From: Nitrospinota bacterium
Lineage (GTDB): Bacteria; Nitrospirota; Nitrospiria; Nitrospirales; UBA8639
NCBI GenBank assembly: GCA_022561525.1
Contig: JADFRB010000055.1
Coordinates: 1 to 8,298 of the forward strand
Direction of reading: 5' to 3'
DNA: 8,298 nt
Under the pieces are notes generated by a model. That model was not told the DNA's origin. It did no database searches and saw only the letters and a program-made list of their open reading frames with translations. Position numbers and translations under genes: made by a program. Positions 1-8,298 of this stretch are shown here, one piece after another; position 1 is the first letter of the stretch, and each line of letters starts with the position of its first letter.

Positions 1-175
1 TATCAATCTCGTGGCGTTTTCCCATTACTTGGATTCGATGGCTGGGCAATTAGCAGCCCTCTTTGTCATTGCCATTGCTGCTGGAGAAGCGGCAATAGGT
101 TTGGCCATCATCATCGTGGTGTTCCGTGGAAAAATGTCGACCAATGTGGATCAGATCAATTTATTGAAATGGTAG
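1..175 (+). CDS. nuoK: NADH-quinone oxidoreductase subunit K, C-terminal part (5' end outside window)
   Basis: NuoK is a small three-helix membrane subunit of complex I (an MrpC homologue) lying between the quinone-site end and the first antiporter-like subunit NuoN. The open frame enters at base 2 and gives 57 residues before TAG at 173-175. The segment containing GQLAALFVIAIAAGEAAIGL is the third transmembrane helix. It holds the conserved glutamate in the AxGEAAIGLA context that belongs to the family's buried acidic path. The tail ending NVDQINLLKW matches the usual NuoK ending (NVEDINxLK-like). The second conserved Glu, expected in TM2, would lie upstream and cannot be seen. nuoL begins after a single intervening base, so the two are probably translationally coupled. 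The call is based on motif recognition and gene order. Confidence 0.95.
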   Translation, partial: INLVAFSHYLDSMAGQLAALFVIAIAAGEAAIGLAIIIVVFRGKMSTNVDQINLLKW

Positions 176-176
176 C

Positions 177-2168
177 GTGTCAGATCTTATCGTAATTCTT
201 ATCCCAGTCTTTCCGCTCATTGCCGTCCTGGTGAATGGGCTTGTCGGTCATCGATATTCTCATGACCTAGCTGGCCGTATTGCCTTAGGATCTGTGGGTT
301 TATCCTTCCTCTGTGCACTCAACGTGTTCGTCGGTGTCATGTCCGATCCGACCCCTCGTGAAGTCATTGCCTACTCTTGGATCTTTGGCGGTGACCTCAA
401 CATCAATCTCGGATTCCTGATCGATCCGTTAACCGCTATCATGTTGATGGTGGTGACAGGAGTTGGATTTCTGATTCATGTGTACTCGGTTGGGTATATG
501 CATGGCGAAGAAGGGTTTACCCGCTTCTTCGTGTATATGAATTTGTTCATGGTCTCGATGCTCCTGCTGGTGATGGGGAACAATTACTTGGTGCTCTTCA
601 TCGGATGGGAGGGTGTCGGACTGTGCTCCTATCTGTTGATCGGGTACTACTTCACCAAAGTATCGGCGTCGAAAGCGGCCACCAAGGCGTTTGTGGTCAA
701 TCGCATTGGTGATGCCGGGTTCCTTCTGGCCATCTTCTTAATATTCGTGAATTTTAAGACATTGGATTACACCAAAGTATTTGCCAATGCCGGTCAACTC
801 TCTACAGAAATGGCCACGGCGATTGCGCTGTGCTTGTTAGTCGGAGCCATAGGAAAGTCGGCGCAACTGCCTCTGTTCACGTGGTTGCCTGATGCCATGG
901 AAGGTCCCACGCCAGTGAGCGCCTTGATTCATGCGGCCACTATGGTCACGGCTGGTGTCTACATGGTGGTTCGAAACCATGCGTTATTCGATATGGCGCC
1001 CTTCGCTATGGCCACGGTGGGCCTCGTTGGAGGCATCACCGCGTTATTTGCCGCCACAATTGGACTCGTCCAGAACGACATCAAGCGTGTGTTGGCCTAC
1101 TCAACCGTCAGTCAGTTGGGCTACATGTTTTTGGCCTGTGGGGTAGGTGCGTATACTGCCGCCATCTTTCATCTGGTCACCCATGCGTTTTTCAAGGCGC
1201 TCCTCTTCCTGACTGCCGGGGCGGTGATTCATTCGCTGAATGGCGAGCAAGACATTCGGAAGATGGGCGGGCTCTCCAAAAGGATTCCGATTACGCATGC
1301 GGTGTTTCTCATCGGCACCTTAGCCATTGCGGGGATTCCGCCGTTGGCTGGATTCTGGAGTAAAGATGAGATCATGGCGCATGCGTTTCTTCAGGGAGAT
1401 TTTTTGGGATACGTGTTGTACGCTTTTGCGGCCATTGGTGCATTTTTGACGTCTTTTTACATGTTCCGTCTCATGTATCTCACGTTTTACGGGCAGTCGA
1501 GAGTTGATCCTGAAGTCGATCATCATATCCATGAATCGCCGCCGGTGATGATGGTGCCGCTTATGGTGTTGGCTGGCCTCGCGATTGTTGGTGGTTTTTT
1601 AGGTGTTCCGCCCGAGCATGGATGGTTCCATGGATTTTTATCGACTGTGGCAACACCGCTTGGCGCAGTGCCTCATGAAGTGAGTACGGGGACGTTGATC
1701 GGTTTAATGGCTGTGGCCATTACCATTGCGTTGGGTGGTTGGGGATTGGCGCACTATATGTATTCCGTGAACACGACGTTGGCAGAAGAGTGGTCGGAAC
1801 GATTCGCTGGGGCCTATCGCACCGTGTTGAATAAATACTATGTGGATGAGATTTACGATGCGATCATTGTTGAACCGTGTAAACGTCTTGGCCAAATAGG
1901 GGATTGGGTCGATCAGAATATTATCGATCGTTTCATTCGAGGGATTGGTCATGGGGCCGATGCGAGTGGGGCGGGGATCACGTGGATGGAGAAACACGTG
2001 ATTTACGGTGGTCTCAATGTGATTGGGTACGCCAATCATGTATTGGCCGGGTCATGGCGGAAAATGCAATCAGGTCTGGTAAATCATTACGCCGCGGTGA
2101 TTGTGATTGGACTGTTTTTGCTGGTGCATTTATTGTTTGTGTGGTTGGTCGGAACATCGGTTTTATAA
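177..2168 (+). CDS. nuoL: NADH-quinone oxidoreductase subunit L with an extended lateral helix
   Basis: This is the distal antiporter-like proton-pumping subunit of complex I, here 663 aa against about 613 in E. coli. Residues expected in its proton path are present: E145 (FIGWEGVG, TM5), D179, K227 (GKSAQLPLFTWLPDAMEGPT, TM7), H252 (IHAATM, TM8), H336 and K340 (THAFFKAL), and K396-D397 (FWSKDE, TM12). After the 14-helix core, the segment from YDAIIVEP (about residue 560) to the final helix is the lateral amphipathic helix HL, which runs along NuoM and NuoN. It spans about 77-80 residues against roughly 50-56 in ordinary NuoL, so about 24-29 extra, as expected of a complex with two NuoM subunits. 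The comparison is with family sequences recalled from memory. The start is GTG, one base after the nuoK stop; there is no strong Shine-Dalgarno, so coupling is likely. The next gene follows after a 113-nt gap with a palindrome. Confidence 0.97.
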   Translation: MSDLIVILIPVFPLIAVLVNGLVGHRYSHDLAGRIALGSVGLSFLCALNVFVGVMSDPTPREVIAYSWIFGGDLNINLGFLIDPLTAIMLMVVTGVGFLIHVYSVGYMHGEEGFTRFFVYMNLFMVSMLLLVMGNNYLVLFIGWEGVGLCSYLLIGYYFTKVSASKAATKAFVVNRIGDAGFLLAIFLIFVNFKTLDYTKVFANAGQLSTEMATAIALCLLVGAIGKSAQLPLFTWLPDAMEGPTPVSALIHAATMVTAGVYMVVRNHALFDMAPFAMATVGLVGGITALFAATIGLVQNDIKRVLAYSTVSQLGYMFLACGVGAYTAAIFHLVTHAFFKALLFLTAGAVIHSLNGEQDIRKMGGLSKRIPITHAVFLIGTLAIAGIPPLAGFWSKDEIMAHAFLQGDFLGYVLYAFAAIGAFLTSFYMFRLMYLTFYGQSRVDPEVDHHIHESPPVMMVPLMVLAGLAIVGGFLGVPPEHGWFHGFLSTVATPLGAVPHEVSTGTLIGLMAVAITIALGGWGLAHYMYSVNTTLAEEWSERFAGAYRTVLNKYYVDEIYDAIIVEPCKRLGQIGDWVDQNIIDRFIRGIGHGADASGAGITWMEKHVIYGGLNVIGYANHVLAGSWRKMQSGLVNHYAAVIVIGLFLLVHLLFVWLVGTSVL

Positions 2169-2199
2169 CTAATACTGAGTGAGAAAATTTTGTGTTCTC

Positions 2200-2253
2200 C
2201 GTTCGCCCTGAGCTACGTCGATGGGCTCACCACGAACGAAAAAAAGTTTTTTT
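2200..2253 (+). repeat. Imperfect palindrome plus A7-G-T7 tract between nuoL and nuoM1
   Basis: CGTTCG at 2200-2205 can pair with CGAACG at 2233-2238. Inside, GAGC 2210-2213 can pair with GCTC 2225-2228, with a mismatched internal loop between the two stems. Its wording (CGTTCGCCCTGAGC ... GGGCTCACCACGAACG) resembles the palindromic extragenic repeats that occur in many copies in numerous bacterial genomes; that is recognition from memory. Seven As (2239-2245), a G and seven Ts (2247-2253) follow, a perfect 15-base inverted repeat in itself. A hairpin followed at a short distance by a T tract could act as a weak terminator or attenuator, or as an mRNA stabiliser, between nuoL and nuoM1. The T run is not directly after the stem, so a strong intrinsic terminator is not supported. 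Confidence 0.6.
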
Positions 2254-2281
2254 AACGACCTCCTAGGGTTCACTATTTTCG

Positions 2282-3853
2282 ATGCTTGAAGAATTGCAAT
2301 TTGGGTTTCCCTTGCTCTCGGTCCTGATTTTCTTGCCGTTCGTCGGAGCGCTTTTGCTGTGGCCGCAGAAGGATCCGGATCTTCTCAAGAAGTCCGCCCT
2401 CGGGATCGCCGTGCTTGAGTTCATCCTGGCTGCGTTGCTTTTATGGCGGTTCATTCCTGATTCTGCCGCCATGCAATTCAGTGAACGGCATGAATGGATT
2501 CCTCCACTGGGAATTTCCTATCACCTCGCCGTCGATGGCATTAGCATTTTATTCGTCGGCTTGACCGCCTTTCTCACCGTCCTGATTGTGCTCTACTCCT
2601 GGGATGCGGTGTCCGAGAACCTCAAGACCTATTTCATGAGCATCCTGGTCTTGGAAACGATGATCATGGGCATTTTCGTGTCCATCGATTTAATCCTGTT
2701 CTTCGTCTTTTGGGAACTGATGCTGATTCCCAGCTACTTCCTCATCAAAATGTGGGGGGTGGGAGAAGAGAGGGAGTATGCCGCGTTAAAGTATGTCCTC
2801 TACACGCTGTTGGGCAGCGTCTTTATGTTGGTCGGGTTCGCGCTGCTGAGCTTGAATTATCATAATGTCACGAATTCCTATAGTTTCGACTTCCTCGAAT
2901 TGCTGACAGTCCCGGTTCCCGTCGGAGAACAGATTCTTATTTTTTGGTTCATCTTCATGGGGCTGGCCTTTAAGGCTCCGATATTTCCTTTTCACACCTG
3001 GTTGCCGGATGTGCTCGTTCAAGGGCCCATCGGCATGTCGGTGGTGTTGGCCGGTGTCAAACTTGGAACCTATGGATTTCTCCGTTTCAGTTTTCCGTTG
3101 CTCCCTGAAGCCTCCACGAATGAAACCGTGGTCGTGATACTCATGGTCCTCGGCCTATCTGCAATTGTGTATGGCGCGATCATCGCGATTGTGCAGGCTG
3201 ATTTCCGCAGGCTCCTGGTCTATAGCAGCATTAGCCATTTGGGCTTCGTCGTGATCGGTCTGTTTGCGCTGAACTTTCAAGGCATTCAAGGCAGCTTGTT
3301 GCAGATGATCAACTTGGGCTTTACGACCGCTGGCCTCTTTTTCATAGCAGGCTTTTTGTATGACCGAACGGGGAATACCCTTGTGGATCAAGCCGGAGGC
3401 ATCGCGGCCAAGATGCCCTTGTTCGCGACGTTCTTCCTCATCATTGGCATGGCGTCAATTGGGCTACCGGGAACCAATGGGTTTATCGGAGAGTTTCTGA
3501 TTCTGCTTGGCGCCTTTCAAGCGCATTGGATCTATGGGGCTGTGGCGGTCTTGGGTGTGATTTTCTCTGCGGCCTATTTCCTCTGGTACTACGAACGAGC
3601 GATCTTTGGTCCGTTGGGAGAAAAAGTGCCGCAAGTGCTACAGGATTTGACTCAACGGGAGACCATTATTGCGATGTCGCTGTGCGTCATGATTTTTTGG
3701 ATCGGCTTGTATCCGTCCCCATTTTTGCGAATGATCAATGGCTCGGTGCAGGCGGTCGTCGATAGATTAGAGCGAGGTTCCGTGGCAAGTATTGAGTTCG
3801 ACCAAAGACTCGCGATGGATTCTCCGAATACACGCCTCCTGGTGAAAGAATAA
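2282..3853 (+). CDS. nuoM: NADH-quinone oxidoreductase subunit M, copy 1
   Basis: This is an antiporter-like membrane subunit of complex I, 523 aa, near the usual NuoM length. Recognisable landmarks are E145 (FFVFWELMLIPSYFLI, TM5), K231 and H238 (FKAPIFPFHTWLPD, TM7), H319 (YSSISHLGF) and E404 (GLPGTNGFIGEF, TM12, the glutamate that replaces the NuoL/NuoN lysine). There are two departures. Between WLPD and YGFLRF there are 20 residues where E. coli-type NuoM has 22, so the TM8 lysine (K260, AGVKLGTYG) sits in a shortened helix instead of the usual AGxLLK arrangement. Residue 345 (MINLGFTTAG) is Leu where the TM11 histidine is normally found. The C-terminal tail after the last helix (about residues 495-523) is hydrophilic. 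The Shine-Dalgarno is weak (AGGG about 13 nt before ATG). nuoM2 starts 5 nt after the stop. That it is a NuoM is certain; the functional effect of the changes is inference. Confidence 0.96.
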   Translation: MLEELQFGFPLLSVLIFLPFVGALLLWPQKDPDLLKKSALGIAVLEFILAALLLWRFIPDSAAMQFSERHEWIPPLGISYHLAVDGISILFVGLTAFLTVLIVLYSWDAVSENLKTYFMSILVLETMIMGIFVSIDLILFFVFWELMLIPSYFLIKMWGVGEEREYAALKYVLYTLLGSVFMLVGFALLSLNYHNVTNSYSFDFLELLTVPVPVGEQILIFWFIFMGLAFKAPIFPFHTWLPDVLVQGPIGMSVVLAGVKLGTYGFLRFSFPLLPEASTNETVVVILMVLGLSAIVYGAIIAIVQADFRRLLVYSSISHLGFVVIGLFALNFQGIQGSLLQMINLGFTTAGLFFIAGFLYDRTGNTLVDQAGGIAAKMPLFATFFLIIGMASIGLPGTNGFIGEFLILLGAFQAHWIYGAVAVLGVIFSAAYFLWYYERAIFGPLGEKVPQVLQDLTQRETIIAMSLCVMIFWIGLYPSPFLRMINGSVQAVVDRLERGSVASIEFDQRLAMDSPNTRLLVKE

Positions 3854-3858
3854 TTTTC

Positions 3859-5454
3859 ATGGGTTCTTTAGCCTTACTCACAGTATTGTTTGCGCCATTT
3901 TTTGGTGCCATTGCGTTGATCTTTGTCCCGAATCGGGAAGCCCTCATGGTGCGCATGGTAGCTGCAGCGTCTGCTGGCCTCGCCCTCTTGGCCTCGGCGT
4001 ATGTGTTTGTGTCCTACGATCCGAATGTCGGCGGGTTTCAGTTTAAGACCCATTGGACGTGGTCTGAGGAACTGGGCATTGCCTTTTATATTGGCGTGGA
4101 TGGCATTGGCGCGCCCTTGGTTTTTGTCTCGGCGCTCTTACTCTTCGCGGGTATTTTTGTTTCGTGGCACATCAAAGATCGAACCAAAGAATTTTATATC
4201 TTTTTGTTGATCCTCGCGGCGGCGACTATTGGGGTCTTTATGTCACTGGACCTGTTCTTCCTCTACTTCTTCTATGAAATGTCCGTGCTACCCATGTATT
4301 TGCTGTTGGGGGTGTGGGGCAGTCATACCAAGGGCTACTTGGGCATGACGGATCCTGAAGGCTTGAAGCTGAGGGATTCCACCAAATTCTTTTTCAACTT
4401 TGGGGCGAACAGCAAAGAATACGCCGCCATGAAGCTGACGCTGTTCTTGTCGGCAGGCGCCGTGTTCGCCCTCATGGGCATCCTCTTGATTTACCATTTC
4501 TCTCCCGTGCATACGTTCGATATTTTGGTGCTGCGTGAGCAGGCAAAATTTGATGGCCTGTTGGGCAACATTATTTGGCTGCTCATCTTTTTTGGATTTG
4601 CCTCGATTGCGCCGATTTGGCCGTTGCATTCCTGGTCGCCCGTCGGCCATGCCGCGGCCCCTGCCGCGACAAGCATGTTGCATGCCGGCGTGTTGATGAA
4701 GCTAGGCCACTTCTCCATTATCCGTGTGGCCTTTGAAATTATGCCGGAGATCACACGCGAGCTCATGCCCATTGCGGCGGTCTTGTGTGTCTTCAGTATT
4801 ATCTATGGCGGCTTTGTGTCCTACTATGCCAGGGACACCAAATATATCATCGGGTATTCCAGCTCGAGCCACATGGGCTACATCTTTTTGGGCATGGCAG
4901 CCTTGGACTACATCAGTTTGACCGGGGCGGTCATTTATATGTTTGCCCATGCCCTGGCCACGGGCATGCTCTTCGCCATGGCGGGATGGATCTATGACCA
5001 AACGCATTCGCGTGACATCCCATCATTAGGAGGGTTGGCACAGAAGATGCCCTTCCTGGCCGGTGCGTTTCTTGTAGCCTGTATGGCTTCCATCGGTATG
5101 CCCGGCACCATAAACTTTATTGCCGAGGTAATGATTATCGTGGGAAGTTGGGAGAAATATCCCTTCCAAGTCATCGTCGCGGTGTTGGGAATTGTACTGA
5201 CCCTTGCCTATTTGTTCAAAATGATGCGGGGCTTGTTCTACGGAAAATTGTCACCGGAATTTGAGCATGTGAGGGATACCTCGCAATGGGTGGATCGAAT
5301 GCCACTGCTCCTGATGATCAGCGCGAGTATTTTCTTTGGCATTTTCCCAATGCACTTTTATAACGTGGTCCGGTCAACGGTAGAACCCATGCTAGATCGA
5401 ATCAACCAAGTAGCGCCGGCGATTGCGCAGAACACAGCGGGGATCTTTCCGTAA
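3859..5454 (+). CDS. nuoM: NADH-quinone oxidoreductase subunit M, copy 2 (divergent NuoM)
   Basis: This second NuoM-family antiporter-like subunit has 531 aa and is clearly not a recent copy of its neighbour. Landmarks are E140 (FFYEMSVLPMYLLLGVWG, TM5), H257 (WPLHSWSP), K281 (HAGVLMKLG, TM8, canonical spacing), H338 (YSSSSHMGY), H364 (MFAHALATG, TM11) and E423 (GMPGTINFIAE, TM12). The TM7 lysine is absent: the aligned position is I250 (FASIAPIWPLHSW against FKAPIFPFHTW in copy 1). Between TM5 and TM6, residues about 155-186 form a polar insertion about 27 residues longer than the same loop in copy 1, predicted to face the cytoplasm in the standard topology. With copy 1 and the long NuoL lateral helix, this fits the '2M' complex I arrangement. 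No clear Shine-Dalgarno is seen; the 5-nt spacing suggests coupling to nuoM1. It is not an Mrp antiporter subunit, given its place inside nuoK-L-M-M-N. Confidence 0.94.
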   Translation: MGSLALLTVLFAPFFGAIALIFVPNREALMVRMVAAASAGLALLASAYVFVSYDPNVGGFQFKTHWTWSEELGIAFYIGVDGIGAPLVFVSALLLFAGIFVSWHIKDRTKEFYIFLLILAAATIGVFMSLDLFFLYFFYEMSVLPMYLLLGVWGSHTKGYLGMTDPEGLKLRDSTKFFFNFGANSKEYAAMKLTLFLSAGAVFALMGILLIYHFSPVHTFDILVLREQAKFDGLLGNIIWLLIFFGFASIAPIWPLHSWSPVGHAAAPAATSMLHAGVLMKLGHFSIIRVAFEIMPEITRELMPIAAVLCVFSIIYGGFVSYYARDTKYIIGYSSSSHMGYIFLGMAALDYISLTGAVIYMFAHALATGMLFAMAGWIYDQTHSRDIPSLGGLAQKMPFLAGAFLVACMASIGMPGTINFIAEVMIIVGSWEKYPFQVIVAVLGIVLTLAYLFKMMRGLFYGKLSPEFEHVRDTSQWVDRMPLLLMISASIFFGIFPMHFYNVVRSTVEPMLDRINQVAPAIAQNTAGIFP

Positions 5455-5518
5455 ACCAAAGGATCATCCTTGGAAAATGGATAGACCCTTTAACCGATTT
5501 GGTTTTTGAGCAGGCACT

Positions 5519-5593
5519 TTCCAACATTCCCCTCCTTTGTAAGGAGGGGTAGGGGAGGTAGAGTCTTTCCTGGAAAAATTAGAGCTGTTGGAA
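5519..5593 (+). repeat. Palindromic element I in the nuoM2-nuoN gap
   Basis: CCCCTCCTT at 5529-5537 and AAGGAGGGG at 5541-5549 form a perfect 9-bp stem with a 3-nt loop, followed by AGGGGAGG (5551-5558), which repeats the right-arm wording. An 8-bp inverted pair, TTCCAACA (5519-5526) and TGTTGGAA (5586-5593), encloses the hairpin and could mark the ends of a small element of about 75 bp. The core wording resembles a palindrome seen in many copies in unrelated bacterial genomes (recognition from memory). It has no T tract and so is not a typical intrinsic terminator. A shorter hairpin, AAGG 5459-5462 with CCTT 5468-5471, lies just after the nuoM2 stop. Confidence 0.6.
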
Positions 5594-5621
5594 TGAGAAG
5601 AGGAATTATTACTTCTATTCT

Positions 5622-5656
5622 CCCTCGCCCCTGAGGGGAGAGAGTTGGGGCGAGGG
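5622..5656 (+). repeat. Palindromic element II in the nuoM2-nuoN gap
   Basis: CCCTCGCCCC (5622-5631) pairs perfectly over 10 bp with GGGGCGAGGG (5647-5656), around a 15-nt loop. An alternative small stem, CCCC TGA GGGG (5628-5638), is also possible. The sequence resembles the common dispersed palindrome family of the CCCTCxCCCCTxAGGGGAGAG type. It ends about 60 bases before nuoN. With element I it fills much of the 263-nt gap, which shows no ORF and no convincing sigma70 promoter for nuoN. Likely effects on transcript processing or stability are inference. Confidence 0.65.
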
Positions 5657-5717
5657 GTTAGCCCATGAGGAAGTTAAAATACCCTACTCATAGAAACTAC
5701 GATTATCTGAATTTCTT

Positions 5718-7214
5718 ATGACCTTTGATCTCACCCTATCCGCCTCCGACCTCCTCCTTCTCGCACCAGAGATTTTTCTCACACTCTGGTTGTGTGTGGT
5801 GTTGGCCGTCGATTTTTCGTTCAAAAATATAGATCACGAAAATCTCGCGTATCTCTCGGTTGGCGGAATTATTGCCACGCTCATCAATCTGATTTGGTTC
5901 AATTATATCGGGGTCCACGGTGCATTGTTTAATGACACGTTTGTCCTGGACGGCATGGCGATCTTCTTTAAAATCATTATTGTGCTGTCCACTGCGCTCG
6001 TCTTGTTGATGTCTATCGATTATGTCAAGAGTTTCCGTTTCTTCCGTGGCGAATATTATTTTCTGGTCATGATGTCGGCCTTGGGGATGATGTTTATGGC
6101 ATCAGCCCAGGATCTGTTGTCGGTGTTCGTGACGTTAGAGTTTTCTACCTTCGGCTTTTATGTGTTGGTCGCGTACCTTAGAGAAGATGAACGGTCTAGC
6201 GAAGCAGGGCTGAAATTTTTCATTCTGGGTGTGTTTGTCGCAGGCCTTTTGACGTATGGAATCAGCCTGGTCTACGGAGAAACCGGAACCTTCGTGTTCT
6301 CCGAAATGGGAGTGACATCTGGAAGTTATGGTTTGGCAATTGGCTTTATCATGATCTTTGCCGCCCTGGGCTTCAAAATCGGCGCTGTGCCTTTTCACTC
6401 TTGGATTCCTGATACGTACCAAGGTGCTCCGACACCCATCACCGCGTTTCTCTCCATCGCTCCGAAGGCAGCGGCATTCGCTATTCTCATTCGGATGTTC
6501 TATGTCGCGCTCATCACGTTTAAGCCGATGTGGGTGTTGCTGTTTGTCGTCGCCTCGATTGTCTCGATGACCTATGGCAACATCGTGGCCATAGCGCAGA
6601 AAAACATTAAGCGCCTGCTGGCGTATTCCGGCATCGCCCAAATTGGCACTGTGATGATTGGGTTGGCCGCGGGAACCAAGCGCGGAAGTGATGCGATTCT
6701 GTTCTTTCTGTTGTCCTACCTGTTCGCCAACCTTGGCGCGTTTGCTGTTATTGTCGGTGTAAGTAACCTGATTAAGAGTGATGAAATCGAGGACTACAAT
6801 GGCTTGAATCGCCGATCACCCTTCCTCGCAGCGGCCATGCTGCTCTTTCTTTTGTCGTTGGCAGGCGTGCCACCACTCGCTGGATTTATCGGGAAAATCT
6901 ACATCTTTCTCGCTGCCATTGAACAAGAACTCTATACGCTGCTGATTGTCGGTCTGATCAACATCGTGATCTCGCTGTACTACTATCTTATTGTGGTTAA
7001 AAAGATGTACATCAACGAACCAACCGATCCAAGTCCTCTCACCGTCTCAGCCCCCCTCAAAACCGCCATCTGTGTCTGCATCGCCGGCACACTGCTCCTC
7101 GGCATCTACCCCAAACCCTTCATCGACTGGGCCGTCTCAGCAACATTGATGTTCTCAAACATTGTTGCGCCGACCGCTGCTGTTCCTGCCTTGCCTTCCC
7201 TGGTCGGAGGATAG
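5718..7214 (+). CDS. nuoN: NADH-quinone oxidoreductase subunit N
   Basis: This antiporter-like subunit is the one closest to the quinone-site end of the complex I membrane arm, 498 aa against about 485 in E. coli. Expected channel residues are all present: E141 (LEFSTFGFYVL, TM5), K220 (GFKIGAVPFHSWIPD, TM7), K250 (SIAPKAAAFA, TM8) and K393 (GVPPLAGFIGK, TM12). The usual 'AYSSIAH' histidine position after TM9 reads Q308 (AYSGIAQIG). The start ATG gives a normal NuoN N-terminus (helix with LLLLAPEIFLTLW), but no Shine-Dalgarno is visible. It is separated from nuoM2 by 263 nt of palindromic repeats. Codon choice changes abruptly at the 3' end: 26 of the 34 codons at 7038-7139 end in C, against 14 of the first 34. 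A degenerate copy of part of this tail lies near 8173-8253. The gene itself appears intact. Confidence 0.97.
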   Translation: MTFDLTLSASDLLLLAPEIFLTLWLCVVLAVDFSFKNIDHENLAYLSVGGIIATLINLIWFNYIGVHGALFNDTFVLDGMAIFFKIIIVLSTALVLLMSIDYVKSFRFFRGEYYFLVMMSALGMMFMASAQDLLSVFVTLEFSTFGFYVLVAYLREDERSSEAGLKFFILGVFVAGLLTYGISLVYGETGTFVFSEMGVTSGSYGLAIGFIMIFAALGFKIGAVPFHSWIPDTYQGAPTPITAFLSIAPKAAAFAILIRMFYVALITFKPMWVLLFVVASIVSMTYGNIVAIAQKNIKRLLAYSGIAQIGTVMIGLAAGTKRGSDAILFFLLSYLFANLGAFAVIVGVSNLIKSDEIEDYNGLNRRSPFLAAAMLLFLLSLAGVPPLAGFIGKIYIFLAAIEQELYTLLIVGLINIVISLYYYLIVVKKMYINEPTDPSPLTVSAPLKTAICVCIAGTLLLGIYPKPFIDWAVSATLMFSNIVAPTAAVPALPSLVGG

Positions 7215-7228
7215 CACGAAACAAGGTT

Positions 7229-7257
7229 TTGTCCTTTCAGTTTTCATTTGCCATAAT
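7229..7257 (+). promoter_or_regulatory. Sigma70-like promoter of the MNT/HEPN pair
   Basis: A -35-like TTGTCC (7229-7234, 4 of 6 consensus bases) and a -10-like CATAAT (7252-7257, 5 of 6) are separated by exactly 17 nt, in the short gap after nuoN. Transcription would start near 7264. An ATG at 7273 would then have almost no leader, and its AGAGG (7258-7262) would not be transcribed. That argues for the later ATG at 7306 as the MNT start. The module would thus be expressed independently of the nuo operon. Confidence 0.55.
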
Positions 7258-7294
7258 AGAGGCACTCAGATCATGAAGCTTTCTGAAGGAAACT

Positions 7295-7302
7295 GGGAGA
7301 GG
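7295..7302 (+). promoter_or_regulatory. Ribosome binding site deciding the MNT start
   Basis: GGGAGAGG at 7295-7302 contains GGGAG (7295-7299) six bases before ATG 7306, the best Shine-Dalgarno of the region. It favours 7306 over the in-frame ATG at 7273. Confidence 0.5.
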
Positions 7303-7305
7303 CGT

Positions 7306-7638
7306 ATGAAAAGGTCTGTAAATAGCGCTACCCTTATCACAGAGATGGTTCGGCGAATTGTCGAAACCTGGAATCCCGACCAGATCATTTTGTTTGGGTC
7401 ATATGCTCGTGGAACAGCGGGCCCGGATAGCGATGTTGATCTCTTGGTAGTTATGTCACTTTCTGAAGGGAGGCGAAAAGTTCGGCTGGGTATTCGCCGA
7501 GCGTTAAGTGGCATGGGACTACCAAAGGATATTGTGGTGGTCACCCCACAGGAAATAGATCGCTATCGTGAGTGTCCTGGAACCATCATTCGTGCGGCCT
7601 TAGGTGAAGGAAAAGTTCTATATGAGCGCAAGTCCTGA
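7306..7638 (+). CDS. MNT-type minimal nucleotidyltransferase, putative antitoxin
   Basis: This is a small protein (110 aa from ATG 7306; 121 aa if ATG 7273 is used) of the DNA polymerase beta-like minimal nucleotidyltransferase family. Residues 31-45 (GSYARGTAGPDSDVD) match the GSx10DxD signature exactly, with metal-binding D43 and D45. A likely third acidic residue is D75 in LPKDIVVVTP. The core beta strands are IILF and VDLLVVM. Members paired with HEPN proteins form MNT/HEPN modules. In characterised type VII systems the MNT protein neutralises the HEPN toxin by transferring AMP onto it. Here the HEPN gene overlaps its 3' end by 17 nt, the usual co-translated layout. The frame is open back into nuoN, but the upstream start is ruled out by overlap, by the promoter at 7229-7257 and by the non-family N-terminus. 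With its partner frameshifted, the gene may be an orphan. Family call firm; substrate unknown. Confidence 0.88.
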   Translation: MKRSVNSATLITEMVRRIVETWNPDQIILFGSYARGTAGPDSDVDLLVVMSLSEGRRKVRLGIRRALSGMGLPKDIVVVTPQEIDRYRECPGTIIRAALGEGKVLYERKS

Positions 7639-8022
7639 ACGAATTGAGGTTGTCCGGCAATGGGTAGCGAAAGCAGAAAATGATCTGAGAAATGCTGAAC
7701 ATACCCTCAAAATGAAAGAAGACTGTCCGCTAGATACAGTGTGTTTTCATGCACAACAGTGTGCCGAGAAATTGATGAAAGCTTGGTTAGTCTTCCTAGG
7801 CATTGATTTCCCCAAAACCCACGACTTAACCGAGTTAGCGGCACTTCTTCCGAAAAAGATCGTTTCCCAATTTCGGTAGATGATTGTGTGATGTTAACGG
7901 ACTACGCAACGGTCACGCGATACCCTGGAGAAGGGGAAGTCATTGAACGTTCCGATGCTCAACAGGCCGTAGAATTGGCCAAACGAGTACGAGAAGTGGT
8001 CCGTCAAATTCTTCCTGTTTGA
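7622..8022 (+). pseudogene. HEPN-domain protein, partner of the MNT gene, split by a frameshift
   Basis: The first frame runs 7622-7879 (85 aa). It has the HEPN hallmark helices: VRQWVAKAENDLRNAEHTL, then CFHAQQCAEKLMKAWLVFLG and the conserved THDLTELAALL. It then ends early at TAG 7877. The missing C-terminus continues in the -1 frame from about 7861 to TGA 8020-8022, with VDDCVMLTDYATVTRYPGE and a final helix AVELAKRVREVVRQILPV, typical of this family. One extra A in the A5 run 7853-7857 would give one continuous protein of 133 aa, the normal length. So one base has been lost, by mutation or sequencing error. The ATG at 7622, with AAGGA (7607-7611) 10 nt upstream, is preferred over an in-frame GTG at 7604. 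An ATG at 7891 could start a 43-aa fragment. HEPN proteins of such pairs are often RNA-targeting toxins; function here is inferred only from family and pairing. Confidence 0.85.
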
Positions 8023-8133
8023 TTGTGAGCCATTTTCCTCACTGATTTCCGTGGATCATTTTCTCTTTCCTGTAGCTTGCCATGAGGTACCCATTGAGGT
8101 CTGCTCTGAGTGTTATCGAAGGGTTCCCCCAAT

Positions 8134-8174
8134 GGAACAGTGGGCTAAGGGGATTTTCGAAATCCCATTGTTCC
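8134..8174 (+). repeat. Nested hairpin after the MNT/HEPN pair
   Basis: GGAACAGT (8134-8141) pairs with ATTGTTCC (8167-8174), 8 bp with one G-U. Inside, GGGATTT (8150-8156) pairs with AAATCCC (8160-8166) around a TCG loop. Alternatively the outer stem extends to 11 bp, using GGG 8142-8144 with CCC 8164-8166. It could be a transcription end signal for the module, though only TTT follows, or the edge of a repeat. It abuts the nuoN-like fragment that begins near 8173. Confidence 0.45.
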
Positions 8175-8253
8175 TTTGACTGCCCGCACTAAAACTGCTG
8201 TAAATTTTCGAATCGATAGCAGCCTCCTCGTCGGCACCTTCCCCAAACCCTTC
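8149..8253 (+). pseudogene. Degenerate fragment resembling the nuoN 3' end
   Basis: A frame opening after TAA 8146-8148 stays open to the window end and has no usable ATG. Its residues at 8179-8253 (TARTKTAVNF, then RIDSSLLVGTFPKPF) align without gaps to NuoN residues encoded at 7047-7121 (SAPLKTAICV, then CIAGTLLLGIYPKPF). Twelve of 25 residues are identical and several others similar (V/I, F/Y, S/T). By hand count 50 of 75 bases match, and 26 of the last 30, including a 14-base exact match CCCCAAACCCTTCA. Upstream, PLT (8173-8181) also matches NuoN PLT if a small gap is allowed. Beyond 8253 similarity is lost. The likely origin is a displaced or duplicated nuoN tail. The match is short and was found by eye, so chance cannot be fully excluded. 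Confidence 0.5.
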
Positions 8254-8298
8254 AATCCAAAAACAGCAGCTGGAAGTGCTGATGCAGCGCAAGAGTTC

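Follow-up and report, generated by a model that had tools for sequence, protein, structure and literature searches.

Does a second NuoM subunit give respiratory complex I a fourth proton pump? The question is raised by an 8,298-nt window (the whole stretch of DNA analysed here, bases 1-8298 of the 8586-nt contig C56, from a 2.2-Mb assembly that is 64% complete), in which two nuoM genes, M1 and M2, stand in tandem between nuoL and nuoN. The proposed energetics of CO2 fixation in Nitrospira, in which ferredoxin is reduced by a higher-stoichiometry complex I with two NuoM subunits (2M complex I), leans on the assumption that the extra NuoM pumps. We find that M2 has kept the residues of the proton wire and lost the lysine of the gating ion pair. 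The conserved loss of this lysine in precisely the extra NuoM makes the pump assumption testable, and M2 is a natural mutant for the question of charge coupling between complex I modules.

The first step is to establish what the two genes encode. All four genes nuoL, nuoM1, nuoM2 and nuoN are open frames on the plus strand (Table 1), with a gap of 5 nt between M1 and M2. Both NuoM proteins exceed the curated cut-off of 263.8 bits of the NCBIfam NuoM model TIGR01972, M1 with 540.9 and M2 with 413.9 bits, as the original prediction of two full-length, diverged nuoM genes in tandem had it. They share just 31% identity (BLASTP), which rules out an assembly duplication of nuoM. Such strong divergence would also suit a protein outside complex I, either an antiporter of Mrp or hydrogenase type or a degenerating copy next to nuoM, and we consider this origin very improbable on several grounds. 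M2 scores at most 141 bits with Mrp and hydrogenase (Hyf) models, under a third of their curated cut-offs, among the 25 of 68 matches listed. In a quick tree with long branches, whose sole Mrp row is a 293-aa MrpD fragment, M2 falls within the NuoM clade with 99% support in the Shimodaira-Hasegawa-like approximate likelihood ratio test (SH-aLRT), apart from NuoN, NuoL, three Hyf proteins and the MrpD piece. The M2 gene is also unbroken in the window, and all 80 loci of relatives conserve it, in company with an insertion in NuoL; these loci are the best 80 of 175 confirmed stretches from an M2 scan of relatives' contigs, and their full-length genes number 80 for M2, 77 for M1, 72 for nuoL and 71 for nuoN. 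Family-model scores, among the matches listed, and tree together lead us to reject M2 as an Mrp or hydrogenase subunit, an assignment that would have told against the original prediction.

Within the tree, the window's M2 pairs with that of the relative's locus L010 (91% over 502 columns, 99% SH-aLRT) inside an M2 clade that holds the Nitrospira M2 proteins; the deep placement of M2 as sister to other NuoM may reflect long-branch attraction. Eight of 15 other-class loci (L221-L235) passed the open reading frame filter for the tree, and two of those rows are wrong frames, L226 (branch length 10) and L230 (a NuoN), which were retained and from which no conclusion was drawn. Four residues make up the canonical NuoM set: the ion pair of a glutamate in transmembrane helix 5 (TM5) with a lysine in TM7, a TM8 lysine and a TM12 glutamate. 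M1 has all four, and M2 has Glu140, Lys281 and Glu423 without the TM7 lysine. Family model and fold make M2 a homologue of NuoM; we do not class it as a functionally canonical NuoM.

Is this homologue part of the membrane arm? The window's NuoL exceeds its single-M counterparts from the same lineages by exactly 26 residues, located in the lateral-helix region. These 26 insertion columns are all occupied in 73 of 73 2M NuoLs and all empty in 11 of 11 single-M NuoLs from those lineages, a comparison from which the E. coli NuoL row was excluded (it aligns ambiguously at the insertion, with 21 of 26 columns filled). A 26-residue insertion is described for MrpD2 of Manganitrophaceae, and 2M NuoL is said to have one resembling it in length and position; the insertion is interpreted as reaching over a fourth module (PMC9040806). 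The same paper reports such insertions in NuoL of two further, canonical-like Manganitrophaceae complexes, and for this reason the insertion alone is no proof of a fourth module. A structure model of the window's NuoL places a single helix, residues 553-627, across the insertion, at a confidence too low for the model to be used (mean predicted local distance difference test, pLDDT, 51; predicted template modelling score 0.48). Taken together, family models, tree, gene order and NuoL insertion support a four-module membrane arm with L, M1, M2 and N. The original prediction therefore stands as to the 2M class and the four-module arm, and no single-M operon was seen to use this NuoL: those of relatives have their own, without the insertion. 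Its further suggestion of extra pumping, which it had itself marked as inference, is weakened by the residue changes in M2.

Each antiporter-like subunit of complex I contains a Glu (or Asp)-Lys ion pair, which in E. coli NuoM is E144/K234 (PMC9271201). At the position of K234, M2 has isoleucine in 81 of 81 order-level sequences, the window's Ile250 included. The same residue is found in 213 of 213 clustered database proteins from two homology searches (best 120 each), which are close to M2 by construction and show conservation inside the clade, not beyond it; three of them have Manganitrophus or Manganitrophaceae names (P0132, P0135, P0136). At class level there are 19 M2 rows, 17 of them distinct once two repeat copies from overlapping loci (L214, L215) are set aside, and these give 16 Ile and 1 Leu, the latter in L216, a further M2-like gene of genome G235. 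Of the 80 loci, 59 encode Ile250 as ATC and 21 as ATT; because the codon varies synonymously, it is isoleucine itself that is conserved. The TM7 lysine is retained in 78 of 78 M1, in 24 of 24 single-M NuoM rows (E. coli included) and in 71 of 71 NuoN, and in NuoL the equivalent lysine (E. coli K229) is kept, along with six further residues checked, in 72 of 72 full-length sequences from relatives. A slip of the alignment at the lysine was ruled out: the alignment runs without gaps to a conserved P-x-H-x-W a few residues on, and BLASTP gives the identical pairing. The TM7 stretch of M2 contains no lysine at all. Our literature search, which did not reach the founding 2M description (Chadwick 2018), found no mention of lysine loss in 2M enzymes in the accessible parts of the papers.

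The proton-wire residues Glu140 (E. coli E144), Lys281 (K265), His338 (H322), His364 (H348) and Glu423 (E407) are present in 81 of 81 order-level sequences. One could suppose that M2 is mainly a spacer, lengthening the arm and carrying no proton, and the lost lysine would suit such a role, as would the extent of other change: single-M NuoM has 132 conserved columns (at least 23 of 24 rows), and M2 has a different, fixed residue at 37 of them as against 11 for M1. We hold this to be improbable, since K265, H322 and E407 would be useless to a spacer and their counterparts are retained in all 81 sequences.

A full fourth pump, moving one more proton per two electrons, would require that another residue replace the lost lysine, and there are candidates. 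The TM6 lysine (Lys192; E. coli K173) is present in 81 of 81 order-level M2 proteins, and TM8 has acquired a histidine (His275) in all 81 and in 213 of 213 database proteins, at a position that is leucine in 24 of 24 single-M rows. A TM8 histidine has been described in MrpA and NuoL (PMC7419157), and its equivalence to that of M2 is a lead. The lengthening of NuoL implies that M2 is incorporated, extra pumping has already been proposed in print for the 2M class (PMC6606698, PMC9040806), and the ion-pair Glu133 of NuoN is dispensable in E. coli (PMC3046159). These points are opposed by the loss of the ion-pair lysine from every order-level and database M2 examined, together with the finding that mutation of this lysine destroys function in the single-M enzymes tested (PMC9802314, PMC3046159). 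We therefore regard a full fourth pump as a serious possibility, on balance a doubtful one.

The properties of the ion pair bear directly on what M2 could do instead. In E. coli, mutation of the ion-pair lysine in N, M or L is reported to cause loss of function (PMC3046159), and in Paracoccus Nqo13 the ion pair and the TM12 glutamate are described as essential, the TM8 lysine less so (PMC9802314). The pair tunes the barrier to proton transfer, and opening it lowers the barrier (PMC11496545). The sequence argues against M2 as an unmodified pump; M2 is probably not pumping by itself in the usual way, and it is not established that the enzyme simply pumps one more proton. Because the wire residues are kept and the ion-pair lysine is lost, M2 likely depends on a neighbour for its gating. 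The reading we prefer, which we hold with belief and doubt in about equal measure, is that the window encodes the far membrane-arm end (the end of K, then L, M1, M2 and N) of a Nitrospira-type 2M complex I, in which M2 retains the wire without the gating lysine and likely needs the neighbouring subunit's control to pass protons, rather than being a fully independent fourth pump.

Mechanistically, M2 would be incorporated into the membrane arm and, if the modules follow the order of the genes, would lie beside NuoN. It would act as a proton wire in which the lysine side of the ion pair never closes, and the TM12 lysine of NuoN might stand in for the lost residue by forming a salt bridge with M2 Glu140; this NuoN lysine is retained in 71 of 71 full-length relatives. 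Working in reverse, as hypothesized in the literature, the arm would spend proton-motive force to reduce ferredoxin with electrons taken from quinol, in support of the reverse tricarboxylic acid cycle.

Several observations weigh against the neighbour-gated wire that we prefer. The invariant TM6 lysine might pair with the glutamate and so restore a normal gate. Changing Glu133 of the NuoN ion pair in E. coli lacked the effect seen in L and M (PMC3046159), so the modules differ in how much they need the ion pair, and the published lysine mutations were all made on three-module enzymes. One published model releases all protons through ND5/NuoL (PMC9802314), and the number of modules need therefore not equal the number of protons, in either direction. 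The wire itself varies outside the order: among the 213 database proteins, 174 have His and 39 have Asp at the position of H348, and one has Gln at that of H322. The poor quality of the NuoL model has also to be counted here.

The two NuoM proteins show paired changes at one of these wire positions. In 85 of 92 operons, M1 lacks His348 (E. coli numbering) and the two residues preceding its TM8 lysine, and M2 retains His348; in 6 of 92, M1 retains His348 and M2 has Asp, and in one operon both retain it. The 92 operons are 94 minus two repeat loci (L214, L215), and the states track phylogeny, so that the counts are not independent events. For 2M enzymes across Nitrospiria we offer the following proposal tentatively, doubting it more than we believe it: M2 would not be an independent pump for a fifth proton; the founding change would be the loss of the ion-pair lysine, leaving a wire without its own gate; the gating residue would be supplied by the neighbour across the interface, with N and M2 forming one double-length module; and M1 would then have changed in step.

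How widespread is this arrangement? The M1-M2 tandem is present in 80 of 80 retained loci, with M2 identities of 74-90%. The closest M2 in named genomes, at 90%, belongs to the metagenome-assembled genome 'Nitrospirae bacterium isolate casp150-mb.14' (among the best 80 of 175), and nearly all 80 retained matches are titled Nitrospira, Nitrospirales, Nitrospirae or Nitrospirota; from these titles we infer that the window belongs to the order Nitrospirales. Of 97 genomes searched as relatives, a set that includes the window's own, 94 have an M2 of the window's type; the other three (G021, G028, G051) match M2 merely at the level of an ordinary NuoM. We also made a wider draw of 395 Nitrospirota genomes, with at most three candidates scored in each. 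Here the M2 type was found in 16 of 20 genomes from the same class and another order (E value of 1e-150 or better), and the remaining four (G198, G237, G314, G393) lacked it, in agreement with a search that scored all their candidates. Outside the class, no genome in the draw gave a better value for M2 than 8.5e-68.

The remainder of the operon can be followed in relatives. The full order B-C-D-G-I-J-K-L-M1-M2-N is present in 41 of 80 loci, the others being shorter or containing an extra fragment; C and D are separate genes, and NuoA precedes NuoB in both loci examined for it (L185, L186). Matches to NuoE, NuoF and NuoH in the 2M operons were found in 0 of 80 loci, many of which end at contig or locus edges; the absence of nuoH, E and F from the 2M operon has already been published (PMC6606698, PMC8115632). 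In the window's own assembly, no nuoA-J of this operon was seen. Searches there returned single copies of nuoA, nuoD (as part of a nuoCD fusion) and nuoH, located on contigs with nuoB/CD/E/F and nuoG/H/I that look like parts of a single-M operon; because each of the three genes was found once, on such contigs, this assembly lacks the upstream half of the 2M operon. One more NuoM piece (on contig C65) is separate, as is an Mrp cluster (C324).

In the window's family (f1), 8 genomes each have one strong match to nuoH, with a weak second in G011, and nuoH sits inside the single-M operon in the five genomes examined (G001, G002, G012, G017 and, from another family, G065). The pattern suggests that the 2M enzyme probably borrows NuoH. 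Seen from the side of the complexes, family f1 has two complex I operons and one strong nuoH per genome, and the 2M complex apparently shares or lacks the quinone-site subunit. A further single-M operon that is E. coli-like, with NuoM 52-54% identical, is present in G087 and G090 (L189, L190), both of them complete genomes from another family.

It is instructive to compare the window with known systems. The 2M complex I of Nitrospira corresponds to clade 3 of Chadwick et al. 2018, according to PMC6606698, with N. moscoviensis CI_1 and the second Nuo of N. marina as examples, and 2M complex I in Nitrospirales, marine members included, has already been published (PMC10579370, PMC12342949). The window's operon is one more member of this type: it shares the two NuoM, the lengthened NuoL and the order Nitrospirales, and its relatives share the lack of E, F and H in the operon and the separate C and D; no difference was seen among the genes present in the window. 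Chadwick (2018) is said to have assigned an independent origin to the 2M complex I of Chloroflexi. This Anaerolinea-type enzyme (nuoLM1M2N) likewise has two nuoM between nuoL and nuoN (PMC7117926). Complex_I_3 of Ca. Manganitrophaceae, with five antiporter-like subunits, has two NuoM and a NuoN nearest to the Nitrospira 2M set and carries the 26-residue insertion, there in MrpD2 (PMC9040806); it differs in that two MrpD replace NuoL. Canonical complex I (that of E. coli and of the single-M operons of the same lineages) shares the L, M and N modules and the residues of the wire, whereas its one NuoM has the lysine, its nuoH lies in the operon, and its NuoL in the same lineages is without the 26-residue insertion.

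Table 1. Genes and sites in the window, with the evidence for each
Feature	Position	Strand	Evidence
nuoK, 3' end only	2..175	+	translation; contig starts within gene; relatives have nuoK immediately before nuoL
nuoL, lengthened form, 663 aa	177..2168	+	TIGR01974, 744.9 bits
NuoL 26-residue insertion, lateral-helix region, residues 598-623	1968..2045	+	alignment to single-M NuoL
nuoM1, 523 aa, TM7 lysine K231 present	2282..3853	+	TIGR01972, 540.9 bits
nuoM2, 531 aa, extra antiporter-like subunit	3859..5454	+	TIGR01972, 413.9 bits
M2 27-residue insert relative to M1, residues 156-182, loop after Glu140 helix	4324..4404	+	gap in M1; block pLDDT 50-65 in model
M2 Ile250 codon, site of TM7 ion-pair lysine (E. 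coli NuoM K234)	4606..4608	+	residue alignment
M2 TM8 His275 (new) to Lys281 (kept)	4681..4701	+	residue alignment
nuoN, 498 aa	5718..7214	+	TIGR01770, 410.2 bits

Between M2 and nuoN lies a spacer of 263 nt (5455-5717); in L010-L012 the end of M2 and the start of the nuoN frame are no more than a few nt apart. A similarity search with the spacer in plasmids gave no match, and an Rfam scan over the window gave none. The spacer contains a 21-nt palindrome-like element with a second site at contig position 8365, and 15 copies with at most one mismatch were counted across the assembly, compared with 0 for a reversed control. The element looks like a dispersed repeat of the repetitive extragenic palindromic type that entered the operon. 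On the 3' side of nuoN (7162-7879), a gene for an MntA-like nucleotidyltransferase (39 bits, cut-off 60) overlaps a HEPN-domain gene whose frame ends at 7879, a couple that resembles an MNT/HEPN toxin-antitoxin pair. Directly past the window's end, a short run of N marks a scaffold gap (about 8299-8307 in L007).

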